In this document: in pieces, positions 12,811 to 31,656 of the stretch
Numbering within the stretch: position 1 is the first letter of the stretch
Layout: each line of letters starts with the position of its first letter
Assembly: GCF_000744655.1 (NCBI RefSeq)
Contig: NZ_JQMJ01000004.1
Location: forward strand, 1,860,001 to 1,924,000
DNA: 64,000 nt
Origin: Streptacidiphilus rugosus AM-16
GTDB taxonomy: Bacteria; Actinomycetota; Actinomycetes; Streptomycetales; Streptomycetaceae
Direction: 5' to 3'
The notes under the pieces: model-generated
The model's input: the letters and a program-made list of their open reading frames with translations, nothing else
What the model was told of the DNA's origin: nothing
Database searches by the model: none
Program-made: the position numbers and the translations under genes

Positions 12811-13449
12811 CTACTCCGCCTTCTTCTTGGCGTCCTGCGCGGCGCCCTCCTCGATGACGGCCTCGGCGACGGCCTTCATGGTCATCCGGCGGTCCATGGA
12901 CGTCTTCTGGATCCAACGGAAGGCGGCCGGCTCGGAGAGCCCGAACTTCGTCTGCAGCACGCTCTTGGCCCGGTCGACCAGCTTGCGGGTGTCCAGCCGC
13001 TGGTTGAGGTCCTCGACCTCGAGCTCCAGCGCGCGGATCTCGCTGTACCGGGAGACGGCCATCTCGATGGCGGGGACGAGGTCCCCTTTGTTGAACGGCT
13101 TGACGATGTAGGCCATCGCCCCGGCGTCCCTGGCCCGGTCGACGAGCTCGCGCTGCGAGAACGCGGTCAGCATCAGGGTCGGCGCGATGTGCGCCTCGTG
13201 GATCTGCTCGGCGGCGGACAGCCCGTCCAGGATGGGCATCTTCACATCCAGGATCACCAGATCCGGCCGCAGCTCCTGCGCGAGCTTGACGGCGGTCTCC
13301 CCGTCCCCGGCCTCACCGACGACGGTGTAACCCTCCTCCTCGAGCATCTCCTTGAGGTCGAGACGGATCAGCGCCTCGTCCTCCGCGATGACGACTCGAG
13401 TCGTCGTCGGCGGGACATGCGGGTCCTGCGGCTCGTCGGCGACGGTCAC
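12811..13449 (-). CDS. Response regulator with RNA-binding ANTAR domain
   Basis: The 212-residue product has an N-terminal receiver (phospho-acceptor Asp near residue 68 in VILDVKMP, Lys in IVKPF) and a C-terminal ANTAR domain (residues about 140-200: coiled-coil lead-in RALELEVEDLNQRLDTRKLVDRAK). ANTAR regulators bind nascent RNA and cause antitermination; the architecture is that of mycobacterial PdtaR. No histidine kinase lies beside it. The GTG at 13449 is preferred because AGGAG precedes it, though by only four bases; an ATG at 13461 and a GTG at 13482 are alternatives in the same frame. Confidence 0.9.
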   Translation of the reverse strand: MTVADEPQDPHVPPTTTRVVIAEDEALIRLDLKEMLEEEGYTVVGEAGDGETAVKLAQELRPDLVILDVKMPILDGLSAAEQIHEAHIAPTLMLTAFSQRELVDRARDAGAMAYIVKPFNKGDLVPAIEMAVSRYSEIRALELEVEDLNQRLDTRKLVDRAKSVLQTKFGLSEPAAFRWIQKTSMDRRMTMKAVAEAVIEEGAAQDAKKKAE

Positions 13450-13544
13450 GATGCTCCTCATAGCTACCGGGGGTGCGTGCACGAGCCTACCCGGACACGG
13501 TATCTTTGAGTTGCAGCGGGGGAGGCTCAGCCTTCGATCCGTAG

Positions 13545-13619
13545 GCCCCGGTAGCCCAATTGGCAGCAGGCAGTGGATTCAAAACCCACACAGTGTCGGT
13601 TCGAGTCCGACCCGGGGCA
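13545..13619 (+). tRNA. tRNA with anticodon CAA (Leu), unusual short variable loop
   Basis: The cloverleaf folds as acceptor GCCCCGG/CCGGGGC (13545-13551 with 13612-13618), a 3-bp D stem, an anticodon stem 13573-13577/13585-13589 with an A-C mismatch at its last pair, loop TTCAAAA with anticodon CAA (13580-13582), and a perfect T arm GTCGG-TTCGAGT-CCGAC. Discriminator is A; CCA is not encoded. The variable loop has only five bases, whereas bacterial tRNA-Leu normally has a long class II arm. It is therefore decoded as Leu only by anticodon; it may be a divergent or degenerate tRNA. Confidence 0.75.
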
Positions 13620-13728
13620 CTTTACCTTCGATTCGAAGGATTCCGATCATTGGACCGCTTCACGCAAATGAGCGAAGTCGGCCGGGAATAGGCAACGCCT
13701 CGGCAGCGCCGGTCCAATCCTGGCGCGC

Positions 13729-14331
13729 ATGTACGACTCGGCCACACGACAGCGCTCGCACGTTCGGGGCCTGACACTCAGTGAGACCAGCCGCGCCACA
13801 GAGATCTCCCGGTCGACTCTGCGCACCTGGCTGCTTCACGACGGGCACCCCACCCCCAATGCCACAGGGCTGATCGACGCCTGCGAGCGGACCCTGACGG
13901 AGGTTCTGCCCACGAACAGGGTCTGTCGCGTTGCCTGCCCCGGGTGCACGAGCGTGGTCGGCTACAGCAAGCACCGGCCCTGCCTCTTCCCCCAGGCCGG
14001 TCCGGGTCCCGAGCACCTGCGCCCGATCGTGCTCGCCGACTGGCGGCGGACCATCGTCGCCGAGCACCTGCGGGAGCTGGTACGCGGCCTGATCCACTCC
14101 GACGGCTGCGGGTTCACCAACCGGGCGACGGGCCGCGGACGCCGCTACGCGTACCCGCGGTGCGTCTTCACGAACAAGTCCGACGACATCCGTCGGATCT
14201 TCACCGACGCCCTCGACGAGGTCGGCGTCGAGTGGAAAGTGACAAAACGTGGGAGCAGTCCTTACAACATCTCCCTCGCCCGCCGCGCCTCCGTGGCACT
14301 GATGGATGAGCATGTCGGACCCAAGCACTGA
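13729..14331 (+). CDS. HTH plus LAGLIDADG-type protein, internally shortened
   Basis: This 200-residue protein starts with a helix-turn-helix of the kind in transposase-like regulators (residues about 14-36) and has one LAGLIDADG-type motif, LVRGLIHSDG, at residues 117-126. It ends with the conserved-looking segment SVALMDEHVGPK. From memory, full-length streptomycete relatives have about 250-260 residues and two such motifs, with the first (LLGLYLGDG-like) between the HTH and the segment matching GLIDAC here. That part is missing, so this copy is probably an inactive or altered derivative of a homing-endonuclease-like protein. It lies 110 bp after the odd tRNA. No good ribosome-binding site is seen at the ATG. 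Confidence 0.6.
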   Translation: MYDSATRQRSHVRGLTLSETSRATEISRSTLRTWLLHDGHPTPNATGLIDACERTLTEVLPTNRVCRVACPGCTSVVGYSKHRPCLFPQAGPGPEHLRPIVLADWRRTIVAEHLRELVRGLIHSDGCGFTNRATGRGRRYAYPRCVFTNKSDDIRRIFTDALDEVGVEWKVTKRGSSPYNISLARRASVALMDEHVGPKH

Positions 14332-30901: not shown

Positions 30902-31656
30902 GCCGAGGCGGCCTCGAGGAGTCGGCCGTCGACCATCTCCAGCACCCGGTCGGCGGCGGCGAGCTGCGCCTTGTCGTGGGTGACCATCACCGTCGCCGTA
31001 CCGTGCTCGCGGGTGATCGCCGCCAGCAGGCCGACGATCTGCTCGCCGCGCTCGTGGTCGAGTGCGGACGTGGGTTCGTCCACCAGCAGCACCGCCGGCT
31101 CGGCGAAGAGCGCGCGGGCGATGTTGACGCGCTGGCGCTCGCCGCCGGAGAGCTGGTGGGGACGCCGGTGCTGCTTGCCGCCGGTCAGGCCGACCGAGGC
31201 CAACAGCGCCTCGGCGCGTGGGGCGGCGGCCCGCGGCTTCTCGCCGCGCAGGTGGGCGACGGCCAGCAGCTGCTCGACGGCGGTGAGGGAGGCGAGCAGG
31301 TTGGACTGCTGGAAGACGATGCCGATCCGGTCCCTGCGCAGCGCGGTGCGCTCGCGGTCGGAGAGCGCGGCGGCGTCCTGGCCGCCGACCAGCACGCTCC
31401 CGCTGTCCGGGGTGAGCAGCGTGGCGGCCACGGCGAGCAGGCTGGACTTGCCGGAGCCGGAGGGGCCCACCACGGCGGCGAACTCCCCCGCGTCGACCTC
31501 GAGGGAGACCCGGTCCAGCGCGGTCAGCCGGCGGTCGCCGTCGGGGTAGGTGAGGACGATGTCGGACAGGCGCAGGCCTGCGCCCACCTCGCTGCGCTCG
31601 GCCGGGCCCTGGCCAATGGGCGCCTCCATGGTGACTCTCTCGCTTCGCTCGTTCAT
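30898..31656 (-). CDS. ABC transporter ATP-binding protein, MacB/LolD type
   Basis: This 252-residue ATPase has Walker A GPSGSGKSSLLAV, Q-loop IVFQQSNLLASLTAVEQL, signature LSGGERQRVNIARAL and Walker B VLLVDEPTSALD, all typical of the MacB/LolD class that partners FtsX-like permeases. The permease gene overlaps its start by four bases. Divergent two-component genes lie beyond the permease, so this may be an exporter or stress-response transporter under their control; no substrate can be assigned. An internal ATG at 31629 is an alternative start. Confidence 0.9.
   Translation of the reverse strand: MNERSERVTMEAPIGQGPAERSEVGAGLRLSDIVLTYPDGDRRLTALDRVSLEVDAGEFAAVVGPSGSGKSSLLAVAATLLTPDSGSVLVGGQDAAALSDRERTALRRDRIGIVFQQSNLLASLTAVEQLLAVAHLRGEKPRAAAPRAEALLASVGLTGGKQHRRPHQLSGGERQRVNIARALFAEPAVLLVDEPTSALDHERGEQIVGLLAAITREHGTATVMVTHDKAQLAAADRVLEMVDGRLLEAASA

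Follow-up and report, generated by a model that had tools for sequence, protein, structure and literature searches.

A 64,000-nucleotide stretch of the Streptacidiphilus rugosus AM-16 genome (hereafter the window) carries a short tRNA gene with a leucine CAA anticodon, followed by a shortened open reading frame (ORF) with a helix-turn-helix (HTH) and a LAGLIDADG-type motif (Table 1). This arrangement raises the question of whether the tRNA belongs to a mobile element or to the host. A sequence-only reading had raised the first possibility, noting that the tRNA does not look like a normal tRNA-Leu and might have been altered by its neighbor or might serve it. We think it probable, with real room for doubt, that the window instead holds an ordinary tRNA-Leu(CAA) and the dead relic of a tRNA-Leu-anchored LAGLIDADG homing family, whose intact members probably cut and replace tRNA alleles. 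The replacement step is the less certain half of this reading, and on its own we would lean neither way.

Table 1. Annotated features at the tRNA-Leu(CAA) locus of the window
Feature	Position	Strand	Basis or remark
pdtaR-like ANTAR response regulator (presumed product), divergent neighbor	12811..13482	-	marks the tRNA(CAA) locus across the class
tRNA leader after -10-like GGTATCTTT	13500..13544	+	sequence
tRNA-Leu(CAA), class I architecture, intact	13545..13619	+	ARAGORN, Rfam, model R1, alignment
tRNA-ORF spacer	13620..13728	+	carries palindrome CCTTCGATTCGAAGG
decayed HTH-LAGLIDADG homing-type gene	13729..14331	+	Pfam, alignment to relatives

The divergent neighbor was named from general family knowledge, and we take its product to be a PdtaR-like ANTAR regulator; the gene is called pdtaR below.

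A class I-shaped tRNA-Leu(CAA) and its distribution

The features that had drawn attention to the tRNA (a leucine anticodon, a five-base variable region, a mismatch in the anticodon stem, and class I size) were all seen again with ARAGORN, which called tRNA-Leu(caa) at 13545-13620, and with Rfam, whose tRNA match covered the full length at 13545-13619 (52.7 bits, E 1.1e-9); the score with model R1 was 91.8 bits. The RNA fits the tRNA model well and is not a class II tRNA, the form with a long variable arm that is canonical for bacterial tRNA-Leu. Compared with that form, the short tRNA shares the anticodon, A73, the D-arm, and the 15:48 determinants but lacks the long arm. Its mismatch is a single A-C at pair 31-39, at the base of the anticodon loop, and because this common allele type (loop TTCAAAA) is also present beside intact ORFs, the mismatch is not read as damage. 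Alignment revealed that the LeuRS determinants A73, A15-U48, G18G19, and A20a are all kept; these positions matter for leucylation in E. coli, where the long arm is reported to be dispensable (PMC9976931), so leucine charging is expected and, judging by these determinants, most likely. Among 31 distinct short alleles, standard pairs make up 99.2% of pair cells, both-side changes occur at 13 pairs, and the 15:48 tertiary pair covaries AU/GC, with G15-C48 replacing A15-U48 in 10 alleles. These pairing and covariation values are far above both controls. By sequence, we take the short tRNA to be a functional, class I-shaped tRNA-Leu(CAA) of the host, the ordinary one in actinobacteria.

Two elements accompany the short alleles. 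The first, CCTTCGAT, lies at 13531-13538 in the leader and is found upstream of about half of the short alleles and none of the class II alleles. The second is the palindrome CCTTCGATTCGAAGG at 13625-13639, of a type that stands behind 82-92% of short alleles compared with 2-5% in shuffles, and that trails most ORF-less short loci as well. Both may perhaps serve pre-tRNA processing or termination.

The idea that the short form is peculiar to the element did not hold, as it is usual across Actinomycetes and is found at 22 of the 34 Streptomycetaceae loci that have no ORF. A tRNA(CAA) gene stands beside pdtaR in all 110 Streptomycetaceae loci surveyed, 64 of them short and 46 class II. By hand counts from tables, the short form was detected in 65 of 111 family genomes with a covariance model of that form, and class II tRNA(CAA) in 47 with a pattern search. 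The two are mutually exclusive with the sole exception of the window's own genome (65 + 47 - 1 = 111). Across Actinomycetes, 362 of 395 genomes match the short-form model, a figure that is approximate for CAA because some matches may be to related class I tRNA-Leu(CAG). The best 20 short-form loci of Actinomycetes were all called 74-79-nt Leu(CAA) by ARAGORN and 19 adjoin pdtaR, while the class II CAA pattern is also present in 5 of 60 Actinomycetes genomes picked for strong short-form matches. With a stricter limit applied to 246 genomes from the wider phylum, 54 matched. From these sequence matches, the short form appears to be usually the resident tRNA-Leu(CAA) at the pdtaR locus throughout the class Actinomycetes.

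Several further tRNA calls were made in the window's genome. Its extra class II tRNA-Leu(CAA) lies at C1:97385-97468 beside IS21-type transposase genes (L129/L280). At C4:2123687-2123838 (L133/L279) stands a tandem of tRNAs of class I size, whose Leu anticodons are CAG and GAG; the CAG member scored 68.6 bits with the short-CAA model, exceeding all ordinary tRNAs tested, and similar matches, at 64-72 bits, were found in most of the genus's genomes. Oddly built calls (Gly GCC, Asp AUC, Trp CCA) were found at C4:5339529-5339679 (L134/L281) and C4:2597655-2597729 (L131). Within the window, ARAGORN also called a 96-base tRNA-Val at 31001-31096, which is missing from the whole-genome Rfam tRNA search and is probably a false call.

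A decayed LAGLIDADG gene and its intact relatives

The window ORF encodes 200 aa and starts 109 bases behind the tRNA. It has an HTH at residues 13-35 and one LAGLIDADG-like half at 114-189; the Pfam LAGLIDADG_3 match (E 0.009) is sub-threshold, the HTH match is likewise below cut-off, and NCBIfam has no family for it. The suspicion that relatives have two motifs agrees with the alignment: intact relatives are about 250-262 aa long, with an N-terminal HTH and the motifs LLGLYLGDG and RGLIHSDG, and Pfam finds HTH and LAGLIDADG_3 only. Relative to these, the window ORF has lost about 58 residues, comprising the linker and motif 1, in an in-frame deletion, and keeps the HTH and motif 2 (GLIHSDG). 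Additionally, about ten near-invariant positions are substituted (H144, K149, Q160, Q161, P168, W169, R182, W186, Y203, and F204, in the numbering of the relatives). Because motif 1 is lost and these positions are changed, we read the ORF as a decayed copy, by its sequence a dead remnant from a family of free-standing LAGLIDADG homing endonucleases. The downstream gap does have the lower GC that had been pointed out (53% compared with 71% for the window), which is unremarkable for an intergenic region.

The intact relatives carry the marks of working proteins of this fold. The motif aspartates are kept in 145 of 148 (LGDG) and 148 of 148 (HSDG) cases, and dN/dS is 0.05-0.21 in close pairs, indicating purifying selection. 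An AF2 model of one intact relative (L049) reached a pLDDT of 87.5, and the best PDB matches of its LAGLIDADG part were I-Tsp061I, I-AniI, and I-DmoI, along with inteins, at Z about 15, with the regulator WhiA nearly tied at Z 15.2; the predicted model thus has the LAGLIDADG fold. Intact members probably bind DNA through the N-terminal HTH and two LAGLIDADG halves. They share with I-DmoI, I-Tsp061I, and I-AniI the two-motif single-chain fold and both acidic residues, but differ in being without an intron or intein and in having an extra N-terminal HTH; nuclease activity is a prediction for the family here, and the window copy is short of one half.

The earlier suggestion of a tRNA-linked, homing-endonuclease-like element that has lost its first motif proved correct, and the link to tRNA genes is stronger than had been guessed. 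The first two homologue searches returned 80 relatives in a public genome set and 6 places in the same genus, and tRNA-Leu(CAA) lies directly upstream of the ORF in all 86 loci, far above chance; by upstream neighbors, all but one form a single syntenic group. A class-wide search of 390 genomes detected the ORF family in 85 of them, spread over 26 genera. Outside the family Streptomycetaceae, 20 loci and one more fetched with the class-wide search were read; one contig ends too soon, and in all 20 with a readable flank the ORF match and a tRNA-Leu gene lie no more than about 130 bases apart. Of these tRNAs, 17 are CAA, either class I or class II, and 3 are tRNA-Leu(UAG), from a single genus (g20) that we infer to be of Mycobacterium type. 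Five outside-family loci carry the tRNA on the other strand from the ORF, its 5' end toward the ORF, and four of these have no pdtaR match nearby. The UAG loci, opposite-strand tRNAs, and loci without pdtaR indicate that the common factor is tRNA-Leu, not pdtaR. Every readable relative thus sits beside a tRNA-Leu gene and most have both motifs, the reverse of homologues that uniformly lack the first motif and lie away from tRNA genes.

The presence/absence comparison that had been called for was run on 110 family genomes: the ORF is absent in 34 and detectable in 76, including about 12 in which it is decayed. Tandem ORF copies occur at four loci (L144, L200, L358, and L362). Residence at one kind of site with presence, absence, and decay constitutes homing-like dynamics. 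A search of phage and plasmid collections found no relative of the ORF.

Block replacement of tRNA alleles and its possible causes

Host closeness was judged by flanking-gene identity, and pairs of loci were compared segment by segment. Averaged over pairs whose pdtaR genes share at least 96% identity, the identities by segment are as follows: pdtaR 97%, promoter part 93%, leader 70%, tRNA 79%, spacer 76%, the first two parts of the ORF 78-80%, the last part of the ORF 91%, and the downstream segment 93%. It is highly unusual for a tRNA gene to be less conserved than flanking coding DNA. In the pair L045/L060, flanks are 94-98% identical, compared with 55% in the leader, 59% in the tRNA, 56% in the N part of the ORF, and 95% in its C part; the tRNA class and the 5' half of the ORF have been exchanged together here and in L096/L098 and L100/L102. 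The earlier suspicion of a tRNA altered by the element finds support in a different sense, as what these pairs show is block replacement of tRNA alleles.

We propose that an intact member would cut sensitive alleles at or next to a tRNA-Leu gene, and that repair from an element-bearing chromosome, or from incoming DNA with the element, would copy in leader, tRNA, spacer, and nuclease gene. Each round would replace the tRNA with an allele resisting that nuclease. Under this proposal, tRNA bodies are swapped between near-identical flanks, even class I for class II, because repair replaces the tRNA allele. What speaks for it is the association with tRNA-Leu genes, the fold, the conserved aspartates, purifying selection, decay and loss, and the block replacement; cleavage, its target position, resistance, and the route of spread are predictions of the model, and leucine charging is predicted from the tRNA sequence.

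The tRNA locus might also be an ordinary hot spot of homologous recombination, where ORF and tRNA variants are simply linked and the nuclease has no part in tRNA replacement. We regard this as unlikely, although some of the data fit it. The HTH type tracks tRNA class, with MYD-type HTHs beside 62 short and 0 class II tRNAs, which speaks for the homing proposal, but the linkage to tRNA class fades toward the C-terminus (delta 0.23 for the HTH, 0.09 for the motif-1 half, and 0.003 for the C half), a pattern that physical linkage alone may produce. In L054/L083, leader, tRNA, and spacer alone are swapped (57-58% identity) and the ORFs remain 93-95% identical. However, divergence peaks exactly at leader, tRNA, and spacer, between flanks at least 93% identical, and the tRNAs of ORF-less relatives are stable: in the same anchor bins, tRNAs are 97.6-100% identical with 0 class differences in ORF-less pairs (11 pairs from two clades), compared with 75-90% identity in pairs with the ORF.

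A second alternative, which we consider quite improbable, is that a WhiA-like DNA-binding protein has been domesticated to regulate the tRNA-Leu(CAA) promoter or its own operon, and is not a mobile nuclease. Its N-terminal HTH, the near-tied WhiA match, the palindromes between tRNA and ORF, and the purifying selection are all in keeping with such a role, and WhiA too combines an HTH with a LAGLIDADG fold and belongs to the same phylum. The order is reversed, however: WhiA has an N-terminal LAGLIDADG part followed by a C-terminal HTH, whereas the family here has its HTH first, keeps both motif aspartates almost invariant, is patchily distributed, and is bound to tRNA genes. Absence and decay on the scale seen among the 110 genomes would be unexpected for a needed regulator, and other genera have the gene beside a different tRNA-Leu gene and on its other side. 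An inverted repeat, TCAC-N5-GTGA, is enriched in the spacer yet occurs at less than half of loci, and was set aside as too weak a candidate for an operator or cut site.

We consider a third alternative very improbable: that the short tRNA is suppressor-like, or specific for an amino acid other than leucine, and was made for the element. In its favor, the combination of a Leu anticodon and a class I shape departs from the textbook (PMC7609411). Against it, no other tRNA(CAA) was detected in 64 of the 111 family genomes, and the short form is usual across the class, often without the ORF. The short form also keeps the LeuRS determinants (with A15-U48 or G15-C48), and the window ORF has 0 UUG or UUA codons. 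Two narrower ideas were dropped. A short tRNA special to ORF-bearing loci fitted the first 14 genomes and failed at the 22 ORF-less short-tRNA loci, and a tRNA decoding rare codons of its own ORF does not fit a window ORF without TTG or TTA and relatives with only 3.5 TTG per 1000.

Returning to replacement by a homing nuclease, we give about equal credence for and against its broader form, in which bacteria harbor a class of homing elements that target tRNA-Leu genes and spread by putting their own resistant tRNA in place of the host's essential one. These elements would drive a genome's only tRNA(CAA) to switch repeatedly from class I to class II, and subfamilies would have specialized on different tRNA-Leu genes (CAA, and UAG in Mycobacterium-type genomes). 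Within the same class, tRNA sequences with and without the ORF are not separated by any obvious resistance site. If the proposal is true, a selfish nuclease gene repeatedly swaps a tRNA that is essential for decoding, even across structural classes, and LeuRS must accept both shapes; how tRNA identity evolves could then be tested in nature. It would also follow that a whole bacterial class can dispense with the long variable arm, the feature by which tRNA-Leu has long been defined.

Likeness to known homing systems

The proposed elements would be a bacterial counterpart to the WHO elements of yeast, in which an allele-specific LAGLIDADG nuclease gene lies downstream of FBA1 and each homing event replaces the FBA1 3' end, building clusters (Coughlan et al. 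2020, PMC7282813). In both, the neighbor of one conserved essential host gene is a LAGLIDADG-type nuclease gene or its pseudogene, which forms tandem clusters and undergoes gain, decay, and loss. In both, the host-gene allele next to the nuclease gene is also divergent as a block between conserved flanks, as in the four locus pairs described above. By this analogy, we class the ORF family as homing-endonuclease-like, and it probably works as WHO elements do; we claim likeness and not membership. Unlike WHO, the family here is bacterial, its target is a tRNA-Leu gene, the whole tRNA and leader are exchanged, and allele-specific cleavage is a prediction. An HTH takes the place of the intein-zinc finger architecture, and the displaced target-gene fragments found downstream in WHO are absent here, with no tRNA fragments downstream of the ORF at any of 190 loci.

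Our search of the open literature found neither a description of tRNA class exchange by a nuclease gene nor one of a bacterial WHO counterpart. On the subjects of tRNA-bound LAGLIDADG genes and of short forms of tRNA-Leu in Actinobacteria or Streptomyces, it returned only the WHO elements and a report of a mycobacterial tRNA-Leu(UAG) that is cluster-encoded and has a short loop (PMC6582537). Group I introns with homing endonucleases in bacterial tRNA genes (PMC3984707) similarly tie a homing nuclease to such genes, but the tRNA here is uninterrupted and the nuclease gene lies outside it. At the three UAG loci (L374, L375, and L376), which hold a subfamily of the ORF, the tRNA-Leu(UAG) is on the opposite strand to the ORF, and the three tRNA sequences are markedly unlike each other.
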